Shown in pieces: positions 106 through 61,456 of a stretch of 61,708 nt of DNA. The stretch comes from an uncultured Bacteroidales bacterium (GTDB taxonomy: Bacteria > Bacteroidota > Bacteroidia > Bacteroidales > UBA932). Position numbers and translations under genes: made by a program. Position 1 is the stretch's first letter. Each line of letters opens with the position of its first letter. Location: contig CANRID010000010.1 of the NCBI GenBank assembly GCA_947630665.1, positions 1 through 61,708 on the forward strand, given 5' to 3'. The notes beneath the pieces were generated by a model. That model was not told the origin of the DNA, did no database searches, and was given only the letters and a program-made list of their open reading frames with translations.

Positions 106-1308
106 CTAATGCGCCGTTTTTTCTATTATTCTGAGAATCATATTTATCCCGTCCGGGATCAACCGGTCTTCGAAATCGAAGCGGGGATGATGGAGAGGGG
201 CATGGTCCCGGCCGGCCCCCAGATCGAAAAATGCGGCCTCGCCATTGCGGGTGAAATAAGCGAAGTCATCGGAGCCTTTTTCCGGTTCTGCCGCATACAT
301 GACAGGCAGCCCCAGTTCGCGGGCGCATTCTTCCGCAATCCGGTTGGCAAGGGGACTGTTTATAGTGGCGGGAAAACTGTCGGGATAGGAAATGGAGATT
401 TTAAATCCGTTGTCCCCGTTTTTGCCTGTCGCAGACAGGTATCGTGCATATTCCGCTTCGCATAACCGGCGTATTTCCCGTTCCGTTTCCTTTTTCATCT
501 CTTCTAATTTCGGGTCCGTATCCGCCCGGAGCGTAAACCGCATGATGCCACTGCCGGGAGTGGTTCCGTAAGCGGGTTCGCCGATAATAAGATTGACTAC
601 GGTAGCTAAGGTACCCGGCGCATCGTATTTTTTCAGGAATCGGGCCAGATCCAGGAATATGTCAGAAGGGTTGAGCGCCAGATGAGGGGAGCAGGCGTGG
701 GCGGTATGCCCCTCTATGGCCACTTCCATGCCTGTGGAGGCATAAGCATAGGTGGAGGGGTTGATAATGACCGTATGCAGCGGGAAGCCGGGCTTGTTAT
801 GCAGGGCGAAAGAATAATCGAATCCGATATGCAGACGGGAGAGTTCCTCCGCCATTTTCTTCGCTCCTTCTCCGGTTTCCTCGGCCGGCTGGAATAACAG
901 ATATACCTCTCCGGCTTCCACAGGACTTCCTTTTTCCTGTTTGTTCCGGCATAGCGCCCGCGCGACTCCGCACAGAATGGCCATATGGCCGTCGTGTCCG
1001 CACAGATGTCCTGCGCCGTCGTTCCGGGACCGATAGGAAAATCCGTTTTCTTCCCGGATAGGCAGGGCGTCCGTTTCGCACCGGAACATACGGGAAGGTC
1101 CCGGCCGGTTCCCCCGGAAAAGGGCGAGCATCCCGTGTCCGCCTATCTCCGTGTAGATTTTGTCGGGATGGCAGGCCTTCAGAAATCCGATGAGGGTGCG
1201 GGCCGTTTCCTGTTCATTTCCGGATGTTTCCGGGTATTGGTGAATCCGGTGCCGGAGTTGGGTTATTTCCTGCAGGAAAGGTAAGCCTTCGATTGGTTTT
1301 TGTTCCAT
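106..1308 (-). CDS. M20-family amidohydrolase/peptidase
   Basis: This 400-residue protein belongs to the M20D amidohydrolases (HipO/AbgB type), which hydrolyse N-acyl amino acids or similar amides with a two-metal centre. Visible metal-site motifs are CGHDGHM near residue 105 and PAEETGEGA near residue 142. An LRHRIHQYPE motif at about residue 18 is typical of the family start. The substrate cannot be read from the sequence. The ATG at 1308 lies inside the 3' end of trmB, a 95-bp out-of-frame overlap, so the gene is probably translated from the same mRNA. No gene lies between it and the 5S terminator, so it is the last gene of the run that starts with holB or further upstream. Confidence 0.85.
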   Translation of the reverse strand: MEQKPIEGLPFLQEITQLRHRIHQYPETSGNEQETARTLIGFLKACHPDKIYTEIGGHGMLALFRGNRPGPSRMFRCETDALPIREENGFSYRSRNDGAGHLCGHDGHMAILCGVARALCRNKQEKGSPVEAGEVYLLFQPAEETGEGAKKMAEELSRLHIGFDYSFALHNKPGFPLHTVIINPSTYAYASTGMEVAIEGHTAHACSPHLALNPSDIFLDLARFLKKYDAPGTLATVVNLIIGEPAYGTTPGSGIMRFTLRADTDPKLEEMKKETEREIRRLCEAEYARYLSATGKNGDNGFKISISYPDSFPATINSPLANRIAEECARELGLPVMYAAEPEKGSDDFAYFTRNGEAAFFDLGAGRDHAPLHHPRFDFEDRLIPDGINMILRIIEKTAH

Positions 1309-2050
1309 AACTCTTGTCTTTTGTTTTCATTTCCTCTTTTTTCCAATATTTTTCGTCCCATTGCGGTTCGGCCAGCGGCTCGGTATTGTCTATCCGAAAG
1401 CGGAGATAGGTAATGGGGAATCCTTTGGACAGAAAATAGGTTTCGTAAAAGGTACGGATCGAAAGGATCTCGTCCGCTTTGTCGGTTCCGTAAATGTCCG
1501 TGCAGGCATCTAATACGGTCAACCGGTTCCGGAGGGCCAAAGCGGCGGTATATTCGTGCAGGAAACGGCTGTCCGTTTTCAGATGCACTATGCCGTCGGG
1601 AACCAGAAAATTTTTGTACCGGTTCAGAAAAGGAACGGAGGTGAGCCGCTTGCGGGCTTTTTTTATCTGCGGGTCGGGAAAAGTAATCCATATTCCGGCT
1701 ATTTCGTTCGGGGCGAATAAGGATTCTATGAATTCTATCCGGGTGCGGATAAAAGCGGCGTTCTGCAACCTGTGTTCTTCTACGTATTTGGCGCCTTTCC
1801 ATAACCGGGCGCCTTTTATGTCTATCCCGATAAAATTCGTATCAGGAAATTTTTCGGCCAAGGATATGGTATATTCTCCTTTGCCGCACCCCAACTCTAA
1901 AATGATGGGATGGTCGTTCCGGAAAACTTCGCGGTTCCAGGCTCCTTTCAGCCGATAGTCCTTTCTCAGAACCTCCTCGGTGGCCGGTTGGAAAAGACAC
2001 CGGAACGTTTCGTTTTCCTGGAATTTCCGTAATTTGTCTTTTGCACTCAT
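1214..2050 (-). CDS. trmB: tRNA (guanine-N7-)-methyltransferase
   Basis: TrmB makes m7G46 in the variable loop of tRNAs using S-adenosylmethionine. The SAM-binding motif LELGCGKGEY is near residue 51. The family signature ITFPDPQIKKARKRL follows at about residue 120, with the HLKTDS motif after it. The protein is 278 residues. The conserved core ends near residue 240, and the remaining tail is low-complexity and basic (KTKDKSYGTK). The DNA encoding that tail also holds the start of the M20 gene, so the tail may be a recent loss of the original stop codon. The start at 2050 is 3 bases from the gldH stop, indicating one operon. Confidence 0.93.
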   Translation of the reverse strand: MSAKDKLRKFQENETFRCLFQPATEEVLRKDYRLKGAWNREVFRNDHPIILELGCGKGEYTISLAEKFPDTNFIGIDIKGARLWKGAKYVEEHRLQNAAFIRTRIEFIESLFAPNEIAGIWITFPDPQIKKARKRLTSVPFLNRYKNFLVPDGIVHLKTDSRFLHEYTAALALRNRLTVLDACTDIYGTDKADEILSIRTFYETYFLSKGFPITYLRFRIDNTEPLAEPQWDEKYWKKEEMKTKDKSYGTKTNRRLTFPAGNNPTPAPDSPIPGNIRK

Positions 2051-2053
2051 ATT

Positions 2054-2564: not shown

Positions 2565-3713
2565 TTATTGTTTTTTATTTCTGCTCCTGTTCTTTTTATT
2601 CCGGGAATTCCTCTTTCTGTTATTTTTGGATTCGTCGAAGCGGGAGATGCTGTCTTCCCCTACCGCGCTTAAAAATTCCGGCGATTTTTCTACCGGATCT
2701 CCCAGCAGGGACTTGCCCTTTATACCTTTTTTATTCAAATGGATGATTTCTTTCACCTCTTTGGCGGTAAGCGGAATCATGTTGGCCATGTTTTGCGGAT
2801 CATAGGAAAACCACATGACACCCTGCAAAATATCGGTTTTAAGCAAATACGCCTCCCCGTCTTCCAATTGCAGCGGTCCGTTTACATTCGGAATGTGGCT
2901 TTGGGCGTCTATATAGACGGGAGCTTCGTAATTTATGCAGCATTTGAGCTTTCCGCATTGCCCGGCCAATTTCTGGGGGTTAAGGGAAAGATCCTGACAG
3001 CGGGCCATCTGGGTGGTAATGGATTGGAAATCGGACATGTATCTGGAGCAGCATAACGCCTGTCCGCAAACTCCCAGGCCTCCTATGAGCCCGGCTTCCT
3101 GTCGCGCTCCTATCTGTTTCATCTCGATCCGGATTCTGAATTCTTCGGCGAATAGCTTGATCAATTGCCTGAAATCCACCCGCTCGTCTGCAATGTAATA
3201 GAAAATGGCCTTGGAACCGTCGCCCTGGAATTCCACGTCCCCGATTTTCATGTTCAATTGAAGATCTGCGGCGATCTGTCGGGAACGGATCATCACTTTA
3301 TGTTCCCGGGCAATGGCTTCCTGCCATTTTTCAATGTCATGGGGCCGGGCTTTCCGGTATATTTTTCTGAATTCGTACGTGGCCGGATCGATATGCTCCC
3401 GTTGCAGCTGCCGCCCTATCACGGGGCCGTGCAGGGTTATAATCCCGACATCGTATCCGTTCTGGGCTTCTACCACCACTATGTCTCCCATTTTGAGATT
3501 CTGTCCCGAATCGTTCTTGAATATGATTTTCCGGGTGTTCTTGAACCGGACTTCGAAATATTGTTTCAGTTCTTCCTGTGTGATTCCTTCCAGCCAGTCG
3601 AAAACGGCCAGTTTGCAGCACCCGTGTTTGTAGGTATATACCGTCTCGCCCTGCCTGTTCCTTTCTTTTACGCACCCTCTCAGGCAATCATAGGTCTTAT
3701 CGTTCGTTTCCAT
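2565..3713 (-). CDS. ricT: PSP1-domain protein, RicT/YaaT family
   Basis: RicT (YaaT) family proteins have a PSP1 domain. In Bacillus RicT acts with RlmA-like partners in RNA maturation and development, but the role in Bacteroidetes is unproved. The protein has 382 residues. The PSP1 core (GVCGQALCCSRYM and KLKCCINYE, residues 214-270) contains the paired cysteines that bind an iron-sulfur cluster in this family. The C-terminus is very basic and low-complexity (RNSRNKKNRSRNKK), suggesting RNA or ribosome contact. The gene starts 2 bases after the holB stop, so the two are translationally linked. Confidence 0.88.
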   Translation of the reverse strand: METNDKTYDCLRGCVKERNRQGETVYTYKHGCCKLAVFDWLEGITQEELKQYFEVRFKNTRKIIFKNDSGQNLKMGDIVVVEAQNGYDVGIITLHGPVIGRQLQREHIDPATYEFRKIYRKARPHDIEKWQEAIAREHKVMIRSRQIAADLQLNMKIGDVEFQGDGSKAIFYYIADERVDFRQLIKLFAEEFRIRIEMKQIGARQEAGLIGGLGVCGQALCCSRYMSDFQSITTQMARCQDLSLNPQKLAGQCGKLKCCINYEAPVYIDAQSHIPNVNGPLQLEDGEAYLLKTDILQGVMWFSYDPQNMANMIPLTAKEVKEIIHLNKKGIKGKSLLGDPVEKSPEFLSAVGEDSISRFDESKNNRKRNSRNKKNRSRNKKQ

Positions 3714-3715
3714 AA

Positions 3716-4843
3716 CTATACATTATAATAGATGCGATTGCATAAATCGCAGAAAATAAATTTAGGGTTCACGTTCCTTTCGATATGCTCTATCGCGGAA
3801 TTTAAAAATCCGTATCCTTTCATATAGAAATCTTTCCGGATTTTTCCCGACAGTTCTTTCAGCTTTTCCCTTTCTCCGCGCGGAGTATAGGAAATATCAT
3901 CCAGGCCCAGACCCAGCATATATGTTTTTCTTAAAATCTCTAATGCCTCTATGCACAGGGATTTCTGGTCTTCCTTTCCCCAGCCGGCGACCTTTTCCCA
4001 GATTTCGAATAAGGAAACCAGATCTTTTTTGACGGCTGATTCCAGAATCGTTACAAAAGTAATATATTTATCGTTATTCTCGTTTCCCTCCTCTATCATT
4101 TCCACGGCTTTGCCGTAACTGCCGCCCGAACACCGTGCCCAAAAAGCCGCATCTTCCTTTTGCAGACCGAATCTTGCCGAAAGCGCATCCGCCAGCCGGG
4201 ATTCCTCTATGGGGCCGGTCTCTATAATCCTGCATCGGGAAAGGATGGTGGCCAATATTTTCCCCGGGTTGTGGGAGATCATGAAATAATAAGTGTCCGG
4301 CTGCGGCTCCTCTAAGGACTTGAGCAGTTTATTGGCCGCTTCCGTATTCATCCTTTCCGGAAACATAATCAGCATTACCTTGGGTCCTCCCTCGTAAGAG
4401 CTCAGGCTTAATTTGCGTATGATGGAAGAGGCTTCGCTTACGCTGATGATGCCGAATTTGTTTTCGATGCCCAGCGTTTTGTACAGCTGCTGTTCGTTGA
4501 AATAGGGATCGGAAAGCACCGCCTGTCTCCAGAGAGGGTAAAAATCGTCGATTTCGCTTTTTTTGTCTTTGCCTACCAGAACGGAGGTGTTGGTGGGGAA
4601 GGTGAAATGGAGATCGGGATGGATCAGTTTTTCCACCTTGTTGCACGGATGGCACCGGCCGCATGAATCGCCCTCCTTTCTGTCGGTACAGAAAAGATAT
4701 TGTATAGCCGCCAGCGCGAGAGTCAGTGCGCCGCACCCCGGCCTTTCCGTAAAAAGAACGGCATGCGGAATCCGGCCGGAATCCACCATCTTACGCAAAT
4801 TATCGACAATAAGGGTATGTCCTAATATTTCTGAAAATTGCAT
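3716..4843 (-). CDS. holB: DNA polymerase III subunit delta' (clamp loader)
   Basis: The delta' subunit is part of the clamp loader that places the beta clamp on DNA. The N-terminus (MQFSEILGHTLIVDNLRKMV) and the zinc-binding cysteines (C51 and CGRCHPC near residue 60) are typical. The P-loop is degenerate (TERPGCGALTLA), as expected for delta', which does not hydrolyse ATP. The SRC motif is kept (ILSRCRIIE, near residue 205). Length 375 residues is normal for Bacteroidetes. It begins a minus-strand run holB-ricT-gldH-trmB-M20 and follows the U32 gene by 19 bases. Confidence 0.9.
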   Translation of the reverse strand: MQFSEILGHTLIVDNLRKMVDSGRIPHAVLFTERPGCGALTLALAAIQYLFCTDRKEGDSCGRCHPCNKVEKLIHPDLHFTFPTNTSVLVGKDKKSEIDDFYPLWRQAVLSDPYFNEQQLYKTLGIENKFGIISVSEASSIIRKLSLSSYEGGPKVMLIMFPERMNTEAANKLLKSLEEPQPDTYYFMISHNPGKILATILSRCRIIETGPIEESRLADALSARFGLQKEDAAFWARCSGGSYGKAVEMIEEGNENNDKYITFVTILESAVKKDLVSLFEIWEKVAGWGKEDQKSLCIEALEILRKTYMLGLGLDDISYTPRGEREKLKELSGKIRKDFYMKGYGFLNSAIEHIERNVNPKFIFCDLCNRIYYNV

Positions 4844-4862: not shown

Positions 4863-6866
4863 TTATCCAATAATTATCATTTCGCAATTCCTGCAATCGA
4901 ATTTCAACTCTAAACGGTTTTTCCCGTTCAACAGAAACAGCGGTTCCCGGAGGTTGCCGGCCTTATGCGGATCGCCGTAGCGGGCGCAGAGTCCCAGTTC
5001 GTATTTGATACAATATTTGGTACGCATCAGTTCCGCCTTTTCCGGGGGACGGAGTTCGTAGGCCGGTGCGATCCGGAGGGCTCCTCTTTCTTTATATACT
5101 TCTCCCGACAGGGAATTGGAACAGTTGGCCAAATAGGTAAGGTCGCGGGGCGCCTGCCCGCTCGTGCGGTCCGGCCCGGTTGCGGTACGGACGGCCTGCC
5201 GTAGCCGCTGTGTTGCCTTCTCTTCCCGTACCCGGGCGGCTTTTCGGATTATTTCCAGCTTTTTCCCCGCTTCTTCTGCAAGCGCCCGCCGGAACCCGTT
5301 CAGCACGGCTGTCGGGAAAAAGGGGATGGTTTCACATTGTATTTCCTTGACTTCGAACCGGAAAATCCCGGCTGTTTTGCTCAGTTGGGAGGCAATCGCC
5401 TCTCTTGCGGTTTCCGGATTCCGGGCCGGGGAGGATTCGTCCGTTATTTTGTAATGGATAGAGAAGGCTTCCGGCAGGCCGTCCGTCTGCCTCTCTCCGT
5501 CGGGAGAGGGAACAGAAAGGAGATTTTCCCGGGAAGCGATATCCGGGACAAGGGACGGAAGCTGCGCCCGGATCGAATAGCCGTCGGGACCTTGAATAAA
5601 GCGGACGGGTACGGGAATCAGGCGGCGGGGCGTGCGGGTTTCCAACTCTTTTTCGAAAGCGATGTTATAGTTCCGGTAAATCTTGGTGTTTACGGGAATC
5701 CGTATTTTTTCGGTGGTGCATACGAGATTTTCATGGCAGGTGTTGGCCCGTGCGCCGAGTATTTCGCCCTCGGGAGTAACGAAACAAAGCCCGTCTCCGT
5801 TGTGGATCTCTCCGGGACGCCGGGAGGGTTCTCCGTTGTTGCCGCCGGATGGATATTCATAGCGGAACTCGAGCATCCCCTGCCGGTTGTAGGATACCCG
5901 GGAAATGTATCCTAAAAATTCTCCCAAATATTTGGCGCCGTCGGCGCTTCTCCAGGAGCTGCGTTTGCCGTCTATAAAGAATTCCGTATAGCCCCGGTTG
6001 AATGTAAGCCAGGGACGGGGAGTGAATCCTCCCGTGCATTCTCCCCAGGAAGAGCGCGTATATTGGGGATGCTCCCGGATCCAGGCGTCTAAGATGAGCC
6101 TGTAATGCGATACTATATTCTTTACATAGGAGATGTTTTTCAGCCGTCCTTCTATTTTGAAAGAGGTGACGCCTGCGCGGATCAGGTCGGGTATGCGGTT
6201 TTCCAAGTTGAGATCTTTCGGCGAGAGCAACGGCCGGCCGGACTCTATGACCCGGCCCCCGCTATCGGTGAGCGTGTAATCGCTGCGGCATGCCTGCGTG
6301 CAGGTTCCCCGGTTGGCGCTTCTCCCCGTGAGATATTGGCTTAGATAACATTGGCCGCTGTAACAAACGCACAGCGCGCCGTGAACGAAAGCCTCTAAAG
6401 GTACTTTGACTGCCTGCCGGATGCTCCGGATCTGTTCTATACTCAGACCCCGTTCTAAAATGAGACGTTCGAACCCCAGCGACTGCGCAAATGCGGCTTC
6501 GCGGGGAGTGCGAATAACAGTCTGGGTGGAAGCATACAGAGGGATGGGCGGCAATTCCATTTTAAAAACGGAAAGGTCCTGAACGATTACCGCATCGCAG
6601 CCGGCCCGGTATGCCTCCCGGATCATCCGGTTTGCCTCTTCCAATTCGTTTTCGTAAAGAATGGTATTGAGGGTCAGGTAGATTCTGACCCCAAAGCGAT
6701 GGGCGTAATGCACTAACTCCGTTATATCGGAGAAAGAATTGCCGGCCGCTTCGCGGGCTCCGAATTTCGGTCCTGCAATATATACGGCATCGGCACCGCA
6801 GTCGATAGCCGCAATGCCGATGTCTTTATTTTTAGCCGGAGCCAGCAGCTCGAGCCCTATTTGCAT
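4863..6866 (-). CDS. U32-family peptidase-like protein (RlhA/YdcP type)
   Basis: This 667-residue protein has the U32 core (LELLAPAKNKDIGIAAIDCG at the start). The signature around residues 165-195 contains CYSGQCYLSQ and RGTCTQACR, whose four cysteines are a probable iron-sulfur site. A DUF3656-like middle follows, then a C-terminal cysteine cluster (CIKYELGLC and FDCRNC). E. coli YdcP (RlhA) is similar in size and layout and hydroxylates C2501 of 23S rRNA. The same activity here is an inference from family only. The start codon overlaps the last 10 bases of the TPR gene, so the two genes are coupled. Confidence 0.85.
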   Translation of the reverse strand: MQIGLELLAPAKNKDIGIAAIDCGADAVYIAGPKFGAREAAGNSFSDITELVHYAHRFGVRIYLTLNTILYENELEEANRMIREAYRAGCDAVIVQDLSVFKMELPPIPLYASTQTVIRTPREAAFAQSLGFERLILERGLSIEQIRSIRQAVKVPLEAFVHGALCVCYSGQCYLSQYLTGRSANRGTCTQACRSDYTLTDSGGRVIESGRPLLSPKDLNLENRIPDLIRAGVTSFKIEGRLKNISYVKNIVSHYRLILDAWIREHPQYTRSSWGECTGGFTPRPWLTFNRGYTEFFIDGKRSSWRSADGAKYLGEFLGYISRVSYNRQGMLEFRYEYPSGGNNGEPSRRPGEIHNGDGLCFVTPEGEILGARANTCHENLVCTTEKIRIPVNTKIYRNYNIAFEKELETRTPRRLIPVPVRFIQGPDGYSIRAQLPSLVPDIASRENLLSVPSPDGERQTDGLPEAFSIHYKITDESSPARNPETAREAIASQLSKTAGIFRFEVKEIQCETIPFFPTAVLNGFRRALAEEAGKKLEIIRKAARVREEKATQRLRQAVRTATGPDRTSGQAPRDLTYLANCSNSLSGEVYKERGALRIAPAYELRPPEKAELMRTKYCIKYELGLCARYGDPHKAGNLREPLFLLNGKNRLELKFDCRNCEMIIIG

Positions 6867-12114: not shown

Positions 12115-12209
12115 TTGTCGGGATGTTTAAATTATTACTATGGTACGGTTTTTTAATGTTCCCGTTTGAGAGGAACATACAAATTTAATAAAAATAGAAC
12201 GAAAATTAC

Positions 12210-41821: not shown

Positions 41822-41841
41822 ACCTTATCGACTTTCGGATT

Positions 41842-47739: not shown

Positions 47740-47757
47740 TGATGATGATCTTTGCTG

Positions 47758-47765
47758 CAAAGATA
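47758..47765 (-). promoter_or_regulatory. -7 promoter element for the ATPase gene
   Basis: On the minus strand the sequence reads TATCTTTG, an exact TAnnTTTG match 18 bases before the ATG at 47739. It rules out the longer upstream start at 47829. Confidence 0.5.
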
Positions 47766-47820
47766 GTGAATTTTGAATAGCCGAAGTATATTTTACACGA
47801 AAAACTACTTTTTTACAATG

Positions 47821-47846
47821 GAAAAGCAACTAAAAAGTTGCTTTTC
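47821..47846. repeat. Exact inverted repeat near the right island end
   Basis: GAAAAGCAAC (47821-47830) is exactly inverted as GTTGCTTTTC (47837-47846), a 10-bp stem with a 6-base loop. It lies 18 bases from the right direct repeat. It could be a terminator for the alaX transcript or part of a recombination site. Confidence 0.7.
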
Positions 47847-48404: not shown

Positions 48405-51400
48405 TTATTTGACTGTACACCAGCTTCCCGTATCGGAGGCGAAAACATTTCCGTCGTACATGGCTTGGCATGAAACAGGCGGCAAATAGAATTTTCCGCG
48501 GTAAGTGGCGGTCAGTTCCGTTTTGATGGAAATGCTTTTTTGCTTTTCCAGATTGAAATAGGTGTGGATCCGGTCGTCCCGGATGTCTTGATAAGTAATC
48601 CCGTCGGGATACTCCGCATTGGAATTGATCCTGCGGTTGACAATCTCCCATCCGCTGGCGAATTTCTGTTCCAGCACCATATTCGTATAATTTTGCATGC
48701 TCGTATTGGTAATGGTTACAACGGTGTAGAAATCAGTACCTTGTGCAATATTCGCATAAGAAAGCGGCTGCCCCTGGGCATCGTAATATTCCACATGCAG
48801 CCGCAGTCCGCTCGCCTGTGCTTTAGCTTCCATTTTAGCGGGAATTCCCGTAGAGGTAAGATTACAATAAACGCTGTTGTCTCCTTTGTTCTCTATCGTA
48901 ACCGGGAGTACTGCGGAAGTCCCTTTCCCGGTAACCTTCTGATTCCCGCCCGTTTCTATCTCACGCTCCAATATCGTCCGTTCCCCGGAGAGATCGTATT
49001 TCCCTTGTCCTGCAATGACGGTTACATCCGGGGTGCCGGTTTTCTGGGTTCGGATAAAATCGCTCAGGGTCAGCAGACACCAGGCGGTACTCTGGGTACT
49101 CAAGTATTGGCGTGGATTGTTCAGGTATCCGCTGAGGATTTGTGCGGTGCGGAAAGCCTGATCCGTATCCCCTAAGGCCATGTAGGTATTCAGGGCGAAA
49201 GCCGTGGTCCGCTCCGGACTGTCGAAAGTATAGGAAAAAGAATTCGTTTTTTCTTGCGTCCCGACAGTTTTGAGAATCTCTTTGGCCACGGACGGCTTAT
49301 TGTTCAGGGCGTAGGCTGCGGACAGAAGCCATTTGGCATCGTTAGGCAGTTGCGGAGTCTCTTCCCGCAGGCGGTTCATCGCTCCCGGCTGGGGATTCCG
49401 GTCCAAAGTCAGCACATACAGGGCATAGGCCTGCTCGGTGAAATTGTTGTCCCTTTTGCCCGTGAATTTTTCCAGATATCCGAATACCGACTCTTTCAGG
49501 CGGGCCGGAATTGCGTAACCGCTTTCCTGTGCCGCCAGAAGGAATTGGGCCGCATAGATGGTACCCCATCGGGAAACCTCCCGCGAACCCGGCCAGTAGG
49601 AGAGGGAACCGTCCGGCAACAGGTAATCCGGCAATTTTCCCAATGCGTAGGCAATATTGTTTTCGGCCTGCTTTTTCAATTGCGGATTGTCCAGGAAATT
49701 ATATACTTCCAATTGCGCGAAAGCGGAAGAGGTAATCTGTTCCAGGCATCCGTGCGGATAATCGATCAGATAACGCAGACGGAATCCCAGATTCAGGGAC
49801 GGAACGGTAGAGACTTCTATATTGGCCGTATTGGTCTGCGGCTCTCCCGCCAAGGCGAATTCGACACTCTTTTTTTCATGAGGCTTGAGAACGAATGATT
49901 CCGAGGTGGAGATCCGGGGAGTCGGGTTCAGCACGTTTATTTCTATATCCTCGCGGGAGACATCCTGCGAACTCTTAGCCGTAACGGTTATTTTGCCTGT
50001 GCCGGGCGTATCTTTTGCTTTGAGTTTGAAATAAATTACCTTTTCGTCGGCCTCGCGGGAATCTTCGGTGACGGAAGAGGCCCCGATAACCTCGAACTTA
50101 TCATTCGTCCCGACAGAGATATCCACTTTTCCTACGTTGTCTTCCAGCGTAAACAAGGTAACCGGCAGGCTGATTTCTTCCTGGGTGGCTACCGTCCGGG
50201 GCAGCGTAGCCTGCACCATCACCGGTTTTTTTACGGCTACGTTCCGGGAAGCGCCTCCCATTGCCCAGCCGTCCGTAGCCACCGCCATCACTCTTACGGA
50301 ACCGATATATTGCGGAATCCGGATTTTGTGGACGGCTTTCCCCCGGGCCGGCAGCGAAAACGGACCTATCACGCGGGCGATAGGCTTAAAGCGCATGGCT
50401 CCTTCCTGTGGTGCGCGGCTTTGCATCAGTTCGTCATCCCCGCCGATTGCGAACAATTGTTCTATCTTCCCGCCGTACGCACCTATGATCCGGTCGAAGA
50501 GATCCCAGGTCGTAATGCCTGAGGCTTGCTGCGCATAAATATATTTCCACGGATCGGGCGTTTTGAAATTCGTCAGACTCAATAGCCCTTCATCCGTCAC
50601 CATCAGTACATAGCCCATCGGCCGTCCGTTTTTCTCCTTGATCCCGACAGTCAACTCGCTTTCGGGTTTTATCTGGTCGGGAGTTTCCAGTTGAGGATAA
50701 AGTACGGATTGCTCATCCTCCACCTTGATGCGCTGAATGCCGTACATGCGGATAGGGGCATCGTTGAGGGTCCTCTCATGCGGCTGGATCAATGTCACGT
50801 AAGCATAAATGTTCGGCAGCATCCGTTTTTCTATCGGGATGGAGATAATGGTTTTATCAGGTCCGCAATTTACCCAGAAACTTTTGAGGATCGTGCCTCC
50901 TTTTTCCAAACAAACCAGCGCCCGCGTGTTTTTGGCCGAAGGGATGGTTAGCAGGGCGGTTTCTCCTACCCGGTAGCTTTCCTTGTCCAAAGTGGTGGAC
51001 AGCCGGGCCGATCCTTCCCCTTCAGCGGCGGCGGAATTACCGTAATCCGCATCCGAAACTAAATATGTGTAGGAGCAGGCATGGCCGCTTTGCGGGTCGG
51101 TTACCCGGATAAAATAATATCCGTAGTTTTCGTATTTCCAGGACAGGGATAAAGTACCCGATCCGTCGGTGAGCTTTACTTTGTAATTTTTAACCGGCCG
51201 CATATCCGAATCGGCGGAATAGGAAGCCGTTCCTCCTTCCGCGGAATTCCACCACCAGCGCCAGCTGACCTGGTAAATCTCTACGTCCGCTTCGGGAACC
51301 GGAACCGGGATGCCGCGGGCATCCACCGTTACGATTCTTAAAGTGTGTTCCTTGTTCTTGTCCAAATATTTATCTCCCCACTGTGCCTTTTCTTCCGGAA

Positions 51401-53789
51401 TATACATTCCTATATAAGAACTGAAAGGGGAAATGCGTTCATTAAAGGAAACGGCGGAAAATTCTCCCGACGGTTCGAATGCCCTGACCGTGAGGGCGGC
51501 ATCGATAAAGCCGGGGGCTCTGCTGAAATCCACGTCCATTTTGCGCGGGAGACGGTAAATGCCGTTGGGGTCGGTAGCGCCCGAGGCTATTTCATATTCG
51601 TCCGTATAAAATGTACGTGTAAAATCCCGGAAAGTATAATCCGCATAATTTTTAAAGGTCGTGGCTGCATTGGAAAGCCGGGCCTTTATGTCGCATGTAA
51701 GCTCTCTGCCCGGGGCGCCGTACAGCCATTCCACCTTTACCTCCCCGTCCGTATCTTCGGGATTCAGATATTCGCCGTTTTCAAGATCCAGGGAAATTTT
51801 CAGACGGTTCGGTTTTACGGTCTCCACTTTCAGCCCTTTGGAGAATGTTTCGTTGCCTATTTTTATCTTCACTTCCCACCGGCCCGTAAGGGCATTCGAC
51901 GAGGTAGGAAAATCATAAGCCAGTATCCCGACAGTGTTGTTTTCCACCCGGCTGCTTACCAATTGCCCTTTGGGGTTATAAAGCTCCGCCACTACGGGAT
52001 AATTTTCAGGCGTTTTGCCGATACCGAAATACGGAATTACGCACACATGCAAGGTATCGCCGGGACGCCAGACGCCCCTCTCTCCGAAAATGAACGCCTG
52101 CACTCCCGATTCATCCCACGTACCCCCTACATCGAAGTCGCTTACCGACAGACTGCGCCCTTTTTGTACTTTAATGAATGATTTGTCATTGTTTTTGGAG
52201 GCGAGAACCGTATATGCTTCTTCGTCGGTCGTAAGGGAGATTTTTCCCTGCGGATCCGTAAACCCTTCCGCCAGAAGCTGGTTGACGGGGCTGAACGCCT
52301 GTACGAGAGCGCCCTGTACCGGACGGCCGCTCATGATATCCGTAACGAAAACGGTATATTCGTTGCGATCGTTGCCTTTTACGATCATAGCCATGTTGGT
52401 GGCGTAAATATTCCGGGATCGCTCGGCATAAGTGTCATAGGTGCCGAAATAGTAATCGCTTTCCCAGGCATTTTCCTCTTCTTCAACCAAAGGCTCCGCC
52501 CCGCGGATCTCAATCCGGTAAATGTCGCCGGGCCGCGCAGCAATGATCCGGTCCAGCCGGAGTCCGTAATTGAGAAGGCCCGTAAGGGATTCGGAGCCGG
52601 GGGCTCCCAACACCAATGTGGTGTCGGCGATGGTTTTGGCGACATTATATAGATTATAGCCTTCTTCTTCATTGTTATCCTGAAGGAATTGCAGAAGGTT
52701 GTTTTCGAAGATCCTTTTGACTCTGACCCGTGCTTTGGCATAGTTGGCGGCCTGGAACAGGATGGTCATATTGTTTCCCGGAGGAAGGAGCATCCCTTTG
52801 CTGAGGAATTTGATTACCGGAGCCGATTCTCCGAAAGAGAGGCCCGCCGTATAATCTTTCTCCAATCCTTCTCCCTTAGTGTTTTTAAGGCCTTTGTCTA
52901 TTGTCAGTGTAAGAGCTCCGCTGAGTTGGCTCTGCGGGTAAAGGGTGATTTTATTTTTATCGGCGGCATATTTGTATTTTACGTTGCCCAAAGTAATGAA
53001 GTTATTGATTTGCGCCGTTTTTTCTACGGGGGCCGAAAGGAATATCTCTATCCGCTGCGGATCCTGTTTCACTTTGATCTCCATGACTTCGAAAGACCCT
53101 TCGGCCGGAATGCGGAGGGTGTCCGTAATTTCCCCTTTTTTCGAATAAGGGGAAAAATCCCGCCGTATATAAATCTCGAAAGGATTTTTCTCCGCCGGTA
53201 TGTTTTCGCTCCGGAAGGTATGTCCCTTTCCGTCCTCCGAGTGGTTCCACTCCAAGGTATGCCGCCCCGGGCCGGCGGTAACGTTCTTTTCTATAAAGGA
53301 AGGAGCCACATAATCCGTTGTCGCTACGATACCTTCTATATAAAAGGTGTTTTCCGGTTCATTGGCCGTTTTTAGTTCCGCATTATAATCGAAAAGAGGA
53401 ACCGGTGTCGAGAACTCGAAGACGAAATTCTTTTCGCTGCAATTTTCCACTAAATCGCCCAACCGGATAGAGCATTTATAGACCGCCTCGTTTTCAAGCG
53501 GTTTGTCCGGTACGATCCGGATAATGTCGGAAGATGTGGCGGAAACGGAAAATCCCAGATGCGGAGTAAAACGTATGCTTTTTTGGAGCGATTCCTCATT
53601 TACGCTCTCTTTGAGCCGGTATCCGTTTTTGAGTTTTACCAGAATGGGCGATTTCGCGAAAACGGAAGTGGGGTATAATTCCACGTACGGATTCTCTTTA
53701 AAAGGAATATCGCGGCCGGATTCCGCGTTTTTGCAGCCGGCTGCCAGCAGAAGAACGCAAAAACAGAGAAAAATACTTATATTTTTCAT
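48405..53789 (-). CDS. Bacterial alpha-2-macroglobulin lipoprotein
   Basis: This 1794-residue lipoprotein (lipobox Cys in CVLLLAAGCKN, residue 19) is an alpha-2-macroglobulin. These large proteins trap proteases in the periplasm. The MG domains, a bait-region middle and the thioester motif YPHGCLEQITSSAFAQLEVY are visible, with Cys and Gln kept. The terpenoid-like alpha-barrel domain and receptor-binding end follow. I prefer ATG 53789 over TTG 53795. It is divergent from pbpC with shared upstream DNA, like the yfhM-pbpC pair in E. coli. Four TGTCGGGA octamers lie in it. Confidence 0.92.
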   Translation of the reverse strand: MKNISIFLCFCVLLLAAGCKNAESGRDIPFKENPYVELYPTSVFAKSPILVKLKNGYRLKESVNEESLQKSIRFTPHLGFSVSATSSDIIRIVPDKPLENEAVYKCSIRLGDLVENCSEKNFVFEFSTPVPLFDYNAELKTANEPENTFYIEGIVATTDYVAPSFIEKNVTAGPGRHTLEWNHSEDGKGHTFRSENIPAEKNPFEIYIRRDFSPYSKKGEITDTLRIPAEGSFEVMEIKVKQDPQRIEIFLSAPVEKTAQINNFITLGNVKYKYAADKNKITLYPQSQLSGALTLTIDKGLKNTKGEGLEKDYTAGLSFGESAPVIKFLSKGMLLPPGNNMTILFQAANYAKARVRVKRIFENNLLQFLQDNNEEEGYNLYNVAKTIADTTLVLGAPGSESLTGLLNYGLRLDRIIAARPGDIYRIEIRGAEPLVEEEENAWESDYYFGTYDTYAERSRNIYATNMAMIVKGNDRNEYTVFVTDIMSGRPVQGALVQAFSPVNQLLAEGFTDPQGKISLTTDEEAYTVLASKNNDKSFIKVQKGRSLSVSDFDVGGTWDESGVQAFIFGERGVWRPGDTLHVCVIPYFGIGKTPENYPVVAELYNPKGQLVSSRVENNTVGILAYDFPTSSNALTGRWEVKIKIGNETFSKGLKVETVKPNRLKISLDLENGEYLNPEDTDGEVKVEWLYGAPGRELTCDIKARLSNAATTFKNYADYTFRDFTRTFYTDEYEIASGATDPNGIYRLPRKMDVDFSRAPGFIDAALTVRAFEPSGEFSAVSFNERISPFSSYIGMYIPEEKAQWGDKYLDKNKEHTLRIVTVDARGIPVPVPEADVEIYQVSWRWWWNSAEGGTASYSADSDMRPVKNYKVKLTDGSGTLSLSWKYENYGYYFIRVTDPQSGHACSYTYLVSDADYGNSAAAEGEGSARLSTTLDKESYRVGETALLTIPSAKNTRALVCLEKGGTILKSFWVNCGPDKTIISIPIEKRMLPNIYAYVTLIQPHERTLNDAPIRMYGIQRIKVEDEQSVLYPQLETPDQIKPESELTVGIKEKNGRPMGYVLMVTDEGLLSLTNFKTPDPWKYIYAQQASGITTWDLFDRIIGAYGGKIEQLFAIGGDDELMQSRAPQEGAMRFKPIARVIGPFSLPARGKAVHKIRIPQYIGSVRVMAVATDGWAMGGASRNVAVKKPVMVQATLPRTVATQEEISLPVTLFTLEDNVGKVDISVGTNDKFEVIGASSVTEDSREADEKVIYFKLKAKDTPGTGKITVTAKSSQDVSREDIEINVLNPTPRISTSESFVLKPHEKKSVEFALAGEPQTNTANIEVSTVPSLNLGFRLRYLIDYPHGCLEQITSSAFAQLEVYNFLDNPQLKKQAENNIAYALGKLPDYLLPDGSLSYWPGSREVSRWGTIYAAQFLLAAQESGYAIPARLKESVFGYLEKFTGKRDNNFTEQAYALYVLTLDRNPQPGAMNRLREETPQLPNDAKWLLSAAYALNNKPSVAKEILKTVGTQEKTNSFSYTFDSPERTTAFALNTYMALGDTDQAFRTAQILSGYLNNPRQYLSTQSTAWCLLTLSDFIRTQKTGTPDVTVIAGQGKYDLSGERTILEREIETGGNQKVTGKGTSAVLPVTIENKGDNSVYCNLTSTGIPAKMEAKAQASGLRLHVEYYDAQGQPLSYANIAQGTDFYTVVTITNTSMQNYTNMVLEQKFASGWEIVNRRINSNAEYPDGITYQDIRDDRIHTYFNLEKQKSISIKTELTATYRGKFYLPPVSCQAMYDGNVFASDTGSWCTVK

Positions 53790-53834: not shown

Positions 53835-53871
53835 CAAATGTACATAAAAATCGGGATTTTATTTATTTTTG
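53835..53871. promoter_or_regulatory. Divergent promoter elements for alpha-2-macroglobulin and pbpC
   Basis: On the minus strand TACATTTG at 53835-53842 serves the macroglobulin gene. On the plus strand TATTTTTG at 53864-53871 serves pbpC. A TGTCGGGA octamer (53870-53877) begins on the last two bases of the pbpC element. Confidence 0.45.
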
Positions 53872-53915
53872 TCGGGATAAATAAACAGGGAATCCGGACT
53901 TGTTGAAAATGTAGG

Positions 53916-56297
53916 ATGTCCGAACAATTGTCTTGGGGAAAAATGGGTATGGATGGAATAAGGAAATGCCGGCGCCCGATTCCGGTCGGGAAATGGATTC
54001 GGGAACATAAAAAACGGTCCGCGATTCTTTTGACGCTGCTGTTTCTGGCGGTTGCGTATTATTTTTGTCTTCCCCGACAATTGTTCACCGCGCCTTTGTC
54101 TGCCGTATTGGAGAGTTCGGAAGGAAAACTCCTGGGAGCGCGGATCGCCCGGGACGGGCAATGGCGGTTTCCCGCCGGGGATTCCGTACCGGTTAAATTC
54201 CGGAAGGCTTTGGTCCGTTATGAGGACAAACGGTTCTATTATCATCCGGGGGTGGATCCTTTGGCCGCCGCCCGGGCCTTATGGCTGAATGTAAAGTATG
54301 GAAAAGTGGTGAGCGGAGGCAGTACTTTGTCTATGCAGGTAATCCGGCTTAGCCGGGGAAACAGGAAAAGGACGCTGTCGGAAAAAATGATCGAGGCCCT
54401 GCTGGCCACCCGGCTCGAATGCCGTTATTCAAAAGAGGAAATCCTCCATTTATATGCTTCCAACGCTCCTTTCGGGGGAAACGTGGTGGGATTGGAAGCC
54501 GCTTCCCGACGGTTTTTCAATACTTCTCCTTCGGAATTGACCTGGGCGGAGTGCGCCATGCTGGCGGTTTTGCCCAATGCGCCTTCCTTAGTCCATATAG
54601 GGAATAATCGTACATTGCTTTTGGAAAAGAGAAACCGGCTTCTGCGGGAGTTGCGGGACGCCGGGGACATTTCCGAGCCGGATTATTCATTGGCGATAGA
54701 AGAGCCGTTGCCCCCTAAACCGTTTCCTATGCCCGATTATGCCTATCATTATTTAGAGAGAAAGCGGAAAGAAAGCGGGGACGGATTTATTCCGAGCGGC
54801 ATCGATTATTATTTGCAGCAAAGAGTCAACGCCTTGGTGCGGGAGTATCACCATAGTTTCAGAGGAAACAATGTGAACAATCTGGCGGTGATCGTTTTGG
54901 ATGTGGATACAGGGCTTCCTTTGGCGTATGCCGGAAATGTCCCGGCCCCGGGCGGAGTGCCCGGGGCGGCGGTGGATGTCGTAACGGCGCCCCGCAGCAG
55001 CGGCAGTACCCTCAAACCTTTGCTGTATGCGGCCATGCTTCAGTCGGGAGAGATTTTGCCCGGACAATTGGTAAAGGATATCCCTCATCGTTATAAGAAT
55101 TTCAGTCCGCAAAATTATAATAAAGAGTATGAAGGGGCGGTCCCCGCCCGTGAGGTGATCCGGCGGTCGCTGAATGTCCCTTCGGTGAGGATGTTGGACG
55201 ATTACGGTGTGGAACGGTTTCTGGGCCTGTTGAGAGAGCTGGGCTTCTCGACCGTAGATAAAAGTGCGGAGCATTACGGCCTCTCCTTGATTCTGGGAGG
55301 GGCGGAAATAACCTTGGATGATCTGGCGGGAGTTTATCGCCGGCTGGCGCTCCTGCTCAATGAGTTTTCGGAAGATAAGAAAAACCGCCGGAGCGGCGAT
55401 ACGGCGGCCGATGTGCCTCTTTCCGCCGCTTCCGTCTGGCTGACATTCGAAGCGTTATCCGAGGTGAACCGTCCGGAGGAAGAAGGGGATTGGAAGTCTT
55501 TCGCATCGGCCCGTAAAGTCGCGTGGAAAACGGGTACGAGCTGGGGAAACCGGGATGCCTGGAGCGTAGGCGTTACGCCCCGTTATGTAGTGGGGGTCTG
55601 GGTGGGTAATTGCAGCGGGGAGGGACGGCCCGGCCTTACCGGGGTATCGTACGCCGCACCCCTGATGTTCGATGTCTTTTCTTTACTTCCCCCTACGGGA
55701 TGGTTCGCCATGCCGGAAAAAGAGATGGAACAGATAGCGGTTTGTTCCCGCAGCGGCCATCCCGCTTCATCCGCATGCGACCGTCGGGACACTATATGGG
55801 TGCCGGTAACGGATATCCGCCCGCCCGAATGTCCTTATCACAGGACGATTCATTTAGATCCGACCGGTTCCTGGATCGTGAACAGCAGTTGCTGCGAGCC
55901 TTCCCGGATGCAAACGGTTTCCTGGTTCGTGCTTCCTCCCGCACAGGAATGGTATTATATGCAAAATCATTTGGATTACAGGAAACTCCCTCCTTTGCAT
56001 CCCGGAATGAGAAATGATCTGTCGGGAAGCGGAGGAGGAATCGAAATACTGTACCCCCAGAACGGATCTACCGTAGTGACTCCCCTCGCCCTGGATTCCA
56101 AAAGCCGCGGAGCCGTTTTCCGGGCTTTTTGTCGGGATAAGGAGGCGATGGTCTTCTGGCATCTGGATGACCGTTATATAGGAGCTACGTTTTATCCGGA
56201 GCATCGGATGACGGTGGTTCCTTCCCGTGGAAATCATGTGCTTAAATTGATAGATGAAACCGGCAATCAGGCTTCCGTGCGTTTCCGGGCCGAGTAA
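53916..56297 (+). CDS. pbpC: Penicillin-binding protein 1C
   Basis: PBP1C is a bifunctional peptidoglycan synthase in the inner membrane. The 793-residue protein has a transmembrane anchor near residues 36-54. The glycosyltransferase (GT51) signature is EDKRFYYHPGVDPLAAA near residue 107, with GGSTLSMQVIRLSRG. The transpeptidase has SSGSTLKPLLYA (Ser catalytic, SxxK) and KTGTSWGNRDAW near residue 536. A BiPBP C-terminal domain ends the protein. Its divergent partner is the alpha-2-macroglobulin gene. The two are thought to act together in envelope repair and defence. Confidence 0.94.
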   Translation: MSEQLSWGKMGMDGIRKCRRPIPVGKWIREHKKRSAILLTLLFLAVAYYFCLPRQLFTAPLSAVLESSEGKLLGARIARDGQWRFPAGDSVPVKFRKALVRYEDKRFYYHPGVDPLAAARALWLNVKYGKVVSGGSTLSMQVIRLSRGNRKRTLSEKMIEALLATRLECRYSKEEILHLYASNAPFGGNVVGLEAASRRFFNTSPSELTWAECAMLAVLPNAPSLVHIGNNRTLLLEKRNRLLRELRDAGDISEPDYSLAIEEPLPPKPFPMPDYAYHYLERKRKESGDGFIPSGIDYYLQQRVNALVREYHHSFRGNNVNNLAVIVLDVDTGLPLAYAGNVPAPGGVPGAAVDVVTAPRSSGSTLKPLLYAAMLQSGEILPGQLVKDIPHRYKNFSPQNYNKEYEGAVPAREVIRRSLNVPSVRMLDDYGVERFLGLLRELGFSTVDKSAEHYGLSLILGGAEITLDDLAGVYRRLALLLNEFSEDKKNRRSGDTAADVPLSAASVWLTFEALSEVNRPEEEGDWKSFASARKVAWKTGTSWGNRDAWSVGVTPRYVVGVWVGNCSGEGRPGLTGVSYAAPLMFDVFSLLPPTGWFAMPEKEMEQIAVCSRSGHPASSACDRRDTIWVPVTDIRPPECPYHRTIHLDPTGSWIVNSSCCEPSRMQTVSWFVLPPAQEWYYMQNHLDYRKLPPLHPGMRNDLSGSGGGIEILYPQNGSTVVTPLALDSKSRGAVFRAFCRDKEAMVFWHLDDRYIGATFYPEHRMTVVPSRGNHVLKLIDETGNQASVRFRAE

Positions 56298-59354: not shown

Positions 59355-59434
59355 TCAAATTTACGGCACACCAGCGACCATCTTGGCCTCCATGTCGTCA
59401 TAAATCGGAGACTTTACGTCCTTGTCCGGCCGCA

Positions 59435-61456
59435 TTAATTTTTGCCAGCCTTGGCCGTTTTTGCTTTGTCTTCTTTCAGACAGGCGTAAATAAGATAAAC
59501 GATCAGGCAAATATAGGCGGCTAACCCTACGTATTGGGCGCCTGCGGACTGCATCCAGTTTTCATTGGCCGCATCCACTCCGGCAAAACGCAGCAGCGCG
59601 CTGACTACTCCCATGAGAGCGCCGCCGGCGATGAATCCGGATGCAAGCAACGTACCTTTTTCGGTCCGGTCTTTGTTTGTTCTTTCATCTTTGCTCCGGC
59701 TTCCCACGTACCAGGCGATGGCGCCTCCCACTAAAAGCGGAAGATTCAGATCCAGCGGAATGAACATTCCCAAGGCAAACGCGAGGGCGGGAACTTTAAA
59801 TGCGGTCAGTATCAGGGCCAGCAATGCTCCGATTCCGTATAACAGCCAAGGGGCTTGGCCTCCGGACATAAGCGGTTCTATCACGGCCGCCATGGCATTC
59901 GCCTGCGGAGCCACGAGTGCCTGAGGCCCCGTGAATCCGTAAGTCTGGTTCAGCAGAATCATGACCCCTCCTACGGTAGCCGCCGCTACTAACGTTCCCA
60001 AAAATTTCCATGTTTCCTGTTTTTTAGGAGTGGTGCCGATCCAGTATCCTATTTTCAAGTCTGTAATGAACGCTCCCGATACCGACAGGGCCGTACATAC
60101 AACGCCTCCTATAATCAGGGCGGCCGTCATTCCCGCGGTGCCTTTCAGGCCGCTGGCTACCATGATAACGGATCCCAGAATAAGGGTCATCAGGGTCATG
60201 CCGCTTACCGGATTCGTCCCCACGATGGCGATTGCATTGGCTGCCACCGTCGTAAACAGAAATGCGATAATCCCTACCACCAACAGGGCAATGACAGCGT
60301 GTTTGAAGTTTGCCACAACTCCTGTATAAAAGAAAATGAAAGTGACCGCCAAAGCGATAAGTATCCCGACAACTATGATTTTCATGGAAAGGTCCCTTTG
60401 GGTGCGGAGTATATTTCTATCCGTCTGTACTTTGTTCCCTTTGAACTCTTTTGCCGCCAGACCGAGCGCCGATTTGATAATGCCGGCGGATTTGATAATA
60501 CCTATTATTCCCGCCGTAGCGATACCTCCGATTCCGATGTGGCGGGCATAGGTGGTAAAAATCGTTTCGGGATCCATTTCTCCTACCGTCTGCATGATCC
60601 CCGAACCCATCAGATCTACAACCTGGGATCCGAAAACTATATTCATAAACGGAATGATGACGAACCATACCAGAAAGGAACCGCAGCATATTATGAATGC
60701 GTATTTCAGCCCGACAATATAACCTAATCCCAATACGGCCGCACCTACGTTGACTTTAAACAGGACTTTGGCTTTGTCCGCTACCGCTTCTCCCCAGGGC
60801 AGCACTTTAGATGTAAAGGTCTCCGACCACCATCCGAATGTCGAGATGATAAAATCGTACAATCCGCCGATGATTCCGCTTGTCAGCAGAAGTTTGGCTC
60901 CGTTTCCGCCGGATTCTCCGCTTACCAATACCTGGGTGGTCGCCGTTGCTTCCGGGAACGGGAATTTCCCGTGCATATCGGCCACGAAATATTTCCGGAA
61001 AGGAATCAGAAATAAAATTCCCAAAATGCCGCCGAGCAGGGAGCTCAGGAATACTTTCATGAAATCTACCGTCAGGGCCGGATATTTCGCCTGGAGAATG
61101 TATAATGCGGGCAGCGTAAAGATGGCTCCGGCTACAATGGCTCCGGAGCAGGCTCCGATGGATTGGATGATCACATTTTCTCCCAAAGCGTTTTTCCGTT
61201 TCAGAGCGCCCGATATTCCTACGGCTATAATGGCTATCGGGATGGCGGCTTCGAATACCTGGCCTACTTTCAGACCTAAGAAAGCCGCGGCTGCGGAAAA
61301 GATAATCGTCATGAGAAGCCCCATGGAAACGCTCCATAGATTGACTTCGGGATAATTTTTATAAGGAGACAGGATGGGCTCATAGGATTCGCCCGGCTTA
61401 AGTTCGCGTGAGGCGTTTTCCGGAAGCCCCTGAGATGGTTGAGAAGTATTTTCCAT
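59435..61456 (-). CDS. OPT-family oligopeptide transporter
   Basis: This 673-residue inner-membrane protein belongs to the oligopeptide transporter (OPT) family, about 14-16 transmembrane helices. Visible features are the NPV-type start SYEPILSPYKNYPEVNLWSV, the repeated GxxFGG-like helices and long conserved segments such as GKFPFPEATATTQVLVSGES near residue 165. The cytoplasmic N-terminus is Ser/Glu-rich. The substrate may be oligopeptide or a metal-chelate; it cannot be told here. It is single, with its own promoter at 61489. Confidence 0.93.
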   Translation of the reverse strand: MENTSQPSQGLPENASRELKPGESYEPILSPYKNYPEVNLWSVSMGLLMTIIFSAAAAFLGLKVGQVFEAAIPIAIIAVGISGALKRKNALGENVIIQSIGACSGAIVAGAIFTLPALYILQAKYPALTVDFMKVFLSSLLGGILGILFLIPFRKYFVADMHGKFPFPEATATTQVLVSGESGGNGAKLLLTSGIIGGLYDFIISTFGWWSETFTSKVLPWGEAVADKAKVLFKVNVGAAVLGLGYIVGLKYAFIICCGSFLVWFVIIPFMNIVFGSQVVDLMGSGIMQTVGEMDPETIFTTYARHIGIGGIATAGIIGIIKSAGIIKSALGLAAKEFKGNKVQTDRNILRTQRDLSMKIIVVGILIALAVTFIFFYTGVVANFKHAVIALLVVGIIAFLFTTVAANAIAIVGTNPVSGMTLMTLILGSVIMVASGLKGTAGMTAALIIGGVVCTALSVSGAFITDLKIGYWIGTTPKKQETWKFLGTLVAAATVGGVMILLNQTYGFTGPQALVAPQANAMAAVIEPLMSGGQAPWLLYGIGALLALILTAFKVPALAFALGMFIPLDLNLPLLVGGAIAWYVGSRSKDERTNKDRTEKGTLLASGFIAGGALMGVVSALLRFAGVDAANENWMQSAGAQYVGLAAYICLIVYLIYACLKEDKAKTAKAGKN

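Follow-up and report, generated by a model that had tools for sequence, protein, structure and literature searches.

The window analysed here, 61,708 bases of contig CANRID010000010.1 from an uncultured Bacteroidales bacterium, is rich in the octamer TGTCGGGA, a genuine signal that acts at the DNA level and marks lineages. The main new result is that clades of a single genus use different versions of the word, much like dialects. We tentatively read the motif, with confidence somewhat short of even, as a self-recognition sequence for homologous DNA exchange resembling a DNA uptake sequence (DUS). The placement of the host in Bacteroidales, made earlier from the letters of the window, was supported by PGK comparison, in which the closest relatives were uncultured Bacteroidales metagenome-assembled genomes (MAGs; identity up to 83%), and the named relatives include Candidatus Cryptobacteroides (78-81%) and Candidatus Coprenecus (77-79%).

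The window carries 31 copies of TGTCGGGA (17 on the plus and 14 on the minus strand), while 100 dinucleotide shuffles of the same bases yielded 2.29 on average and never more than 7, corresponding to a 13.5-fold enrichment. All 31 copies counted by eye in the earlier note were recovered, 30 of them at exact coordinates and the other shifted by one base (56130, not 56131). The over-representation proposed there extends to the whole 2.24-Mb genome, in which TGTCGGGA occurs 985 times against 41 (23 + 18) for the control, TGTCGGGA read backwards, a 24-fold excess; the use of both strands also held (498 and 487 copies), and the form YGTCGGGA reaches 1395 copies. When octamers were ranked by z against an order-3 Markov background, a check proposed in the same note, TGTCGGGA came out on top, with 204 copies against 21.6 expected (9.4-fold) in a 450-kb sample made of 20 stretches of its own genome and the window.

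The base 5' of the octamer had been described as C or T in all copies but one, and this proved right (C 18, T 12, A 1; n = 31). The TA thought to trail the motif follows 9 of the 31 copies, but T and then A stand there at frequencies of only 0.27 and 0.35 over the 204 copies, and the trailing TA is an accident of the window. Among nine-base forms in the 450 kb, the highest ranks under the order-3 Markov background were held by CTGTCGGGA (119 vs 5.8 expected) and CCGTCGGGA (93 vs 9.3), followed by TTGTCGGGA (74 vs 6.9) and CTATCGGGA (46 vs 6.3), and one-base neighbours of the TCGGGA core stayed at or below 1.8-fold over expectation. On the basis of this ranking and of the neighbours within TCGGGA, the full motif is YYRTCGGGA, with three 5' positions that tolerate transitions and a stricter TCGGGA core. 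Such graded 5' tolerance beside a strict core is what would be predicted of a protein site. CTGTCGGGA is not self-complementary, and ATCGCGAT, which belongs to other dialects, is a palindrome. An AT-rich flank as in the uptake signal sequence (USS) was considered and rejected, the 3' AT content (0.565 vs 0.517 overall) being a weak deviation.

Codon usage or composition as the full cause was ruled out by dinucleotide and synonymous shuffles, by the Markov background and by a phase test. When synonymous codons were shuffled within 349 open reading frames (ORFs), 20.1 +/- 3.7 copies were expected (60 shuffles) and 186 were observed, a 9-fold excess, and TGTCGGGA was the top octamer under this null as well; the full explanation by codon usage that the earlier note had named as a threat to its claim thus fell away. 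In genomes G000 and G034 taken together, YGTCGGGA is enriched 4.4- to 13.0-fold in each of the six codon phases, and its 209 coding-strand and 191 template-strand copies (null 26.4 and 21.4) divide between the strands in nearly the proportion of the null.

The dialects were called in 39 genomes of the genus and in a comparison set of 41 genomes outside it, wherever the whole-genome count of a word was at least 5x that of its reversed-word control. TGTCGGGA reached this threshold in 12 of the 39 (G000, 1, 5, 6, 7, 9, 11, 15, 17, 22, 24 and 34) and YATCGCYGA in 12 others (G003, 4, 10, 12, 13, 16, 20, 26, 27, 28, 31 and 32); no genome passed for both words, and 15 passed for neither. A third word, YATCGGGA, passed in seven. 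Five of these are TGTCGGGA genomes, which use it as a side form; in the other two, G012 and G013, it accompanies high YATCGCYGA while TGTCGGGA stays near background. Outside the genus, TGTCGGGA passed in 2/41 genomes, G051 (5.1x) and G074 (6.0x), at densities of 0.04 and 0.10 per kb, respectively, against 0.44 in the host. The 5x line is not clean alone, and densities and synonymous shuffles carry the dialect claim. G074, from another family of the order, holds 209 TGTCGGGA against 35 and 158 YATCGCYGA against 31 (5.1x) for the reversed controls.

Under synonymous shuffling, YGTCGGGA was found 238 times against 34.7 in G000, 121 against 8.2 in G034 and 40 against 2.2 in G024 and G009 together. 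The same word was missing (0 copies) from the stretches of G037 and G032, which instead use YATCGGGA (31 vs 3.7) and YATCGCYGA (40 vs 6.6), respectively; YATCGCYGA was also in excess in G016 (38 vs 9.4), G026 (34 vs 8.9) and G003 (24 vs 7.6). Little signal was seen in G014 (YGTCGGGA, 18 vs 9.0), G002 (YATCGCYGA, 8 vs 2.9) and G047 of another genus (YGTCGGGA, 6 vs 2.6), and no dialect signal in G008. Unclean cases also occur, such as YGTCGGGA in G003 (10 vs 2.9) and YATCGGGA in G016 (19 vs 6.8), and G021 has a weak scatter of forms (YGTCGGGA, 10 vs 1.6); in G021, G047 and G008 the reversed decoy itself was off by 2- to 7-fold. Words found de novo agreed with the calls: YATCGGGA and YATCGCGA in G037, YATCGC(T/C)GAG in G032, and YGTCGGGA, YGTCGCGA and YATCGCGA in G034. 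The side words of G034 (L151, L159-L178; YGTCGCGA 50 vs 2.8, YATCGCGA 41 vs 4.5) are possibly a dialect in transition. A de novo search in the motif-poor G014, G002 and G047 gave no clear dialect. As side observations, stretches of G008 hold ACTATCGC 15 times against 1.3, perhaps a further weak dialect; GCATCTGAA occurs 30 times in 34 kb of G014 (L117, L118), probably as a local repeat, and was not among the top words of the G014 set without L117; and the decamers CACTTTTCAC and CACTATTCAC are mildly repeated in G047 (L247-L253; 10 vs 0.4 and 7 vs 0.2).

The dialects follow phylogeny, as judged by a tree of a single gene, PGK. Its 42 rows comprise 36 of the 39 genus genomes (G028, G033 and G038 had no full match) and six genomes from other genera of the family. 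Nine of the 11 placed YATCGCYGA genomes fall in one starred clade (100/99) of ten rows, the tenth being G036 with a weak 2.7x, and G012 and G013 form a separate starred pair. Another starred clade comprises G018, G025, G029 and G037; YATCGGGA use was confirmed in G037 only and stood at about 2x the reversed control in the other three. The TGTCGGGA genomes are split over three positions, namely G000 by itself, the pair of G001 and G034, and a ten-member clade (100/95) in which nine genomes reach 5x or more. The simplest order of change would be YGTCGGGA to YATCGGGA to YATCGC(N)GA, an order that we infer rather than read off, because the tree has a midpoint root, open deepest forks, sister genera among the genus rows and three long rows.

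Individual copies also tend to be kept between species, at about twice the rate of decoys. The conservation set consisted of the eight of nine PGK loci scored as same-dialect (L057, with three copies of one word and two of the other, was left out) and the opening 30.4 kb of the window. In all comparisons the motif was kept in 94/276 and decoys in 46/281, and where the amino acids were identical the values were 74/131 and 46/178; of 237,139 comparisons of octamers with comparable GC, 74,456 (0.31) showed no change, and YATCGGGA in same-dialect PGK loci was kept in 10 of 50. An initial test with few sites gave 0/5 for G000 against G034 (control 0.09) and 6/23 for G000 against same-dialect named loci (control 0.10).

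The 340 extended sites are spaced nearly exponentially (mean 1268 bp), with a single clear outlier, an 18.3-kb gap in the window. The earlier note had found no copy in an island there, and indeed the island at 30391-47829 holds no TGTCGGGA where 12.2 are expected (P about 5e-6) and no extended-motif site where 19.3 are expected. Its Pfam content, an AraC-type regulator, a SusC/SusD-like pair, a calcineurin-like phosphoesterase, GH26, GH130, an MFS transporter, a GlcNAc 2-epimerase-like protein and a SASA esterase, suggests a probable mannan-use locus and may reflect horizontal acquisition. With a GC content of 0.515, the island is close to its flanks (0.492 and 0.501) and is distinguished from them by the motif gap. 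A second motif-free gap, of 11.0 kb, is occupied by an MmeI-type restriction-modification locus, whose products include an N6/N4 methylase as well as a T5orf172/MUG113 protein. The third, of 12.2 kb, contains core genes (ribosomal protein L1, EF-Tu, DXP synthase and adenylosuccinate synthetase), and the absence of the motif may therefore mark constrained core genes as well as recent arrivals. The proposal that host DNA has the word and foreign DNA lacks it is thus incomplete as a rule, since a core stretch is empty as well as the two putatively acquired islands. The DUF1016 patch, also described earlier as free of copies, is no true desert, with sister forms at 18844, 19887, 20382, 20676 and 21125, and the 1-kb gene alone is uninformative. 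The features are collected in the table below.

Table. Copies of the motif, its sister forms and motif-free loci; positions are those of the window unless a locus is named.
Feature	Position	Strand	Remark
TGTCGGGA	378..385	+	exact match
TGTCGGGA	1161..1168	+	exact match
TGTCGGGA	3277..3284	+	exact match
TGTCGGGA	3443..3450	-	sole copy without preceding C or T
TGTCGGGA	3845..3852	-	exact match
TGTCGGGA	5103..5110	-	exact match
TGTCGGGA	5310..5317	+	exact match
TGTCGGGA	8881..8888	+	exact match
TGTCGGGA	10654..10661	+	exact match
TGTCGGGA	12116..12123	+	exact match
TGTCGGGA	12296..12303	+	exact match
TGTCGGGA	14325..14332	+	exact match
TGTCGGGA	15872..15879	+	exact match
TGTCGGGA	16934..16941	+	exact match
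TGTCGGGA	22426..22433	-	exact match
TGTCGGGA	23650..23657	+	exact match
TGTCGGGA	24259..24266	-	exact match
TGTCGGGA	24750..24757	-	exact match
TGTCGGGA	25549..25556	+	exact match
TGTCGGGA	26282..26289	-	exact match
TGTCGGGA	27521..27528	-	exact match
TGTCGGGA	29490..29497	+	exact match
TGTCGGGA	29549..29556	-	exact match
TGTCGGGA	49259..49266	-	exact match
TGTCGGGA	50108..50115	-	exact match
TGTCGGGA	50642..50649	-	exact match
TGTCGGGA	51926..51933	-	exact match
TGTCGGGA	53870..53877	+	exact match
TGTCGGGA	56020..56027	+	exact match
TGTCGGGA	56130..56137	+	earlier given as 56131
TGTCGGGA	60364..60371	-	exact match
sister form CCGTCGGGA	1593..1601	+	
sister form CCGTCGGGA	5497..5505	+	
sister form CCGTCGGGA	5581..5589	+	
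sister form TCGTCGGGA	8848..8856	-	
sister form CCGTCGGGA	9877..9885	+	
sister form CCGTCGGGA	10187..10195	-	
sister form CCGTCGGGA	18844..18852	+	
sister form CTATCGGGA	19887..19895	-	
sister form CCGTCGGGA	20382..20390	-	
sister form CCGTCGGGA	20676..20684	-	
sister form CCGTCGGGA	21125..21133	+	
sister form CTATCGGGA	24056..24064	-	
sister form CCGTCGGGA	30342..30350	-	nearest copy preceding the island
sister form CCGTCGGGA	48601..48609	+	nearest copy past the island
sister form CTATCGGGA	50831..50839	+	
sister form CCGTCGGGA	51465..51473	-	
sister form CCGTCGGGA	54504..54512	-	
sister form CCGTCGGGA	55781..55789	+	
sister form CTATCGGGA	61234..61242	+	
motif-free island	30391..47829	.	internal control, outside the motif system
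MmeI-type locus	L004:15181 to L005:5990 (own genome, C1 about 75.2-86.0 kb)		motif-free

According to the reading we favour, TGTCGGGA would be the core of a 'self' word, YYRTCGGGA, that a sequence-specific protein recognises directly on the DNA. In the host chromosome, as sampled, the word would be maintained with a copy roughly every 1.3 kb. DNA released by the same lineage may be preferentially bound and imported owing to the word and recombined into the chromosome via DprA and, presumably, RecA. Copies would thereby be spread and replenished, and new islands would be too recent to have gained the word. If the reader protein shifts its specificity, the words of a genome may slowly be replaced, giving rise to the dialects YGTCGGGA, YATCGGGA/YATCGCGA and YATCGCYGA. 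A protein-read 'self' word of this kind could account for the graded consensus, the conservation, the dialects, the losses and the island gaps. The fuller picture is rather less probable than the reading itself. In it, an uncultured Bacteroidales genus would exchange marked DNA self-selectively by means of a receptor other than a type IV pilin; evolution of this receptor would have carried the word from YGTCGGGA via YATCGGGA to YATCGCYGA, and the word would be a barrier to exchange between species. Natural competence has been documented in Bacteroidota, and R. columbina DNA is reported to have outcompeted foreign DNA (PMC7965970). We found no earlier report of the motif in the open-access literature among the matches listed, which is not proof of absence, and the matches listed for the octamer string were unrelated by title.

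The genes that such exchange might use are partly present. ComEC (PF03772) was detected in 29 of 30 genus genomes, DprA in 38 of 39 and proteins with the helix-hairpin-helix domain HHH_3 in 30 of 30; one such protein in G000 has about 340 aa and two stretches. The ComEC gene of G000 (L229:2282-3535; 417 aa) adjoins a diacylglycerol-kinase-like gene and acetate kinase. In other families, most of the intact ComEC matches lie in frames of about 690-730 aa. None of the surveyed genes tracks the motif, since ComEC, DprA, HHH_3 proteins and the AddB-type nuclease subunit occur both with and without it.

Several results weigh against an uptake function. The pilus and type II secretion system ATPase PF00437 exceeded its cut-off in none of 30 genus genomes, which gave short weak patches only while control genomes were positive, and a DUS of the ComP type is therefore unsupported. 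The ComEC frames of the genus are short (357-575 aa), with matches ending at 233-262 of the 270 PF03772 positions and with stops within the matched stretch in 9 of 29. Motif-poor genomes carry ComEC, DprA and HHH_3 just as often, which means that these genes do not account for the losses, and no receptor was identified among the families surveyed. The motif lies mostly in genes, which lowers confidence, and the 392 YGTCGGGA sites within ORFs are spread evenly along the gene (Kolmogorov-Smirnov (KS) p 0.81), while sites outside ORFs are slightly more numerous than expected (62 vs 44.5); for the coding-strand subset of YATCGCYGA (n = 87) the KS p was 0.045. Inverted close pairs are not in excess, 14 of 30 close pairs being in opposite orientation, and terminator hairpins formed by such pairs were ruled out on the same count. 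The conservation comparisons have sites in common and cannot count as independent, and in several species pairs no copy was kept; the reversed-word control is imperfect, with a ratio of up to 6.0 outside the genus (G074); and the islands examined are two only, their acquisition being inferred, besides which a core-gene stretch lacks the word. In addition, the top k-mers of competent R. columbina are reported to be A/T-rich runs, unlike the motif (PMC7965970). Our confidence is held down by the lack of pilus ATPases, the short ComEC and the mostly intragenic motif, and the motif, though DUS-like, is not filed as a DUS because the pilus feature was tested for and not found.

The chief rival is a Chi-like site, which we consider unlikely but still the best of the alternatives: the word would be the stop signal of an AddAB helicase-nuclease, so that host ends are spared and passed to RecA while unmarked or phage DNA is degraded. 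The machinery would be at hand, as the AddB-type subunit (PF12705) was detected in all of the 39 genus genomes but one (38 of 39; the exception is G028, a genome 80% complete) and AddB-like and RecB/AddA-like ORFs stand in tandem in all eight loci fetched, with names that rest on NCBIfam matches below curated cut-offs in G000 only. The word is also G-rich, non-palindromic and mostly in genes, and it is missing from the islands. Polarity, however, is against it. In G034, a single contig of 2.23 Mb sampled in 21 stretches of 20 kb with strands assigned by GC skew, 95 YGTCGGGA copies are on the leading and 67 on the lagging strand (58.6% of 162), compatible with the 59.4% of CG-containing octamers of the same composition (P 0.87); the side form YATCGGGA has 24 leading and 38 lagging copies (n = 62). 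E. coli Chi lies 75% on the leading strand, a share with which the YGTCGGGA split is incompatible (P = 7e-6), and KOPS (FtsK orienting polar sequences) has strong polarity from origin to terminus. The non-polar character described in the earlier note was thus upheld, and a polar signal of either kind was ruled out, the polarity in G034 matching base composition. Chi words are, moreover, stable within genera as far as is known, and the AddB-type subunit is retained by every one of the 15 genus genomes in which neither TGTCGGGA nor YATCGCYGA gives a strong signal. AddB and AddA identities correlate across eight genomes (r 0.95, residuals within 0.046), AddB being no more divergent than AddA at dialect borders, which ruled out co-divergence of AddB with dialect. 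Uptake is favoured over Chi because of the lack of polarity and the fast change of dialect within the genus. If the motif were nevertheless a Chi, it would be the first candidate Chi of Bacteroidales, given that the Chi of B. fragilis was stated to be unknown in 2014 (PMC4027173), a gap that leaves room for this reading.

Less probable still is a signature like the highly iterated palindrome HIP1, that is, a word that has a chromosomal role connected with an orphan DNA methyltransferase, or that serves as a nucleoid-protein site, with no link to uptake. HIP1 and its replacements are described as varying by lineage and as missing from some genomes (PMC4390886), other dialects here include the palindrome ATCGCGAT (15 vs 0.7 in G026), and the spacing of the motif is nearly random. 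The main dialect is non-palindromic, though, and ATCGCGAT can be explained as YATCGCGA matching both strands at once. The earlier note had likened the motif to DUS and to HIP1; its DUS-like density stands, the likeness to HIP1 does not because the word is not a palindrome, and the absence of PF00437 over cut-off from the 30 genus genomes examined speaks against the ComP-type DUS. The strongest evidence, the replacement of this word by related ones in other clades of the genus, was beyond the reach of that note. The last alternative, in which the word simply results from codon usage, dinucleotide bias or repeats in proteins, could invoke the 58 of 62 copies in one phase that encode Leu-Ser-Gly, whereby coding limits copy positions, and an imperfect synonymous null (reversed decoy 14 vs 5.6 in G021, 15 vs 6.4 in G047 and 1 vs 7.2 in G008), yet it is extremely improbable and as a full explanation is already refuted by the excess over synonymous and dinucleotide shuffles, the enrichment of all six phases and the substitution of other words by clade.

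If the motif is an uptake mark, there would be self-selective DNA exchange in a gut group in which no pilus ATPases of known type were found, and changes of the word could explain species barriers. Under either the uptake or the Chi reading the dialects already supply test substrates that match or mismatch, and motif gaps may flag recent arrivals in these MAGs.

Among known systems, KOPS differs in its strong origin-to-terminus polarity, which the motif lacks in G034. With Chi of RecBCD/AddAB it shares a short G-rich non-palindrome, over-representation on the host backbone and the presence of AddAB-type genes, but it has no replication-strand bias past composition, and it changes or vanishes within the genus while the AddB-type subunit stays. 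The USS of Pasteurellaceae occurs at about one copy per 1-2 kb, and the motif resembles it in this density and in its short core. Unlike USS, for which a bias to gene termini has been described (PMC2346458), it has neither such a bias nor an excess of inverted close pairs, and no pilus ATPase was found in the 30 genus genomes. Cyanobacterial HIP1 and other highly iterated palindromes are likewise massively over-represented and give way to other words in some lineages (PMC4390886), whereas the main dialect here is non-palindromic. For the DUS of Neisseriaceae, 943 to 5918 copies per genome have been reported, with dialects that include a one-base insertion (wadDUS) and one genome with two dialects (PMC3630211). 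The present motif differs from these in having no pilus or type II secretion ATPase over cut-off and no excess of inverted pairs, and its role in uptake is putative; it is like them in copy number, in the use of both strands, in clade-specific related words, in a one-base insertion and in genomes with two words.

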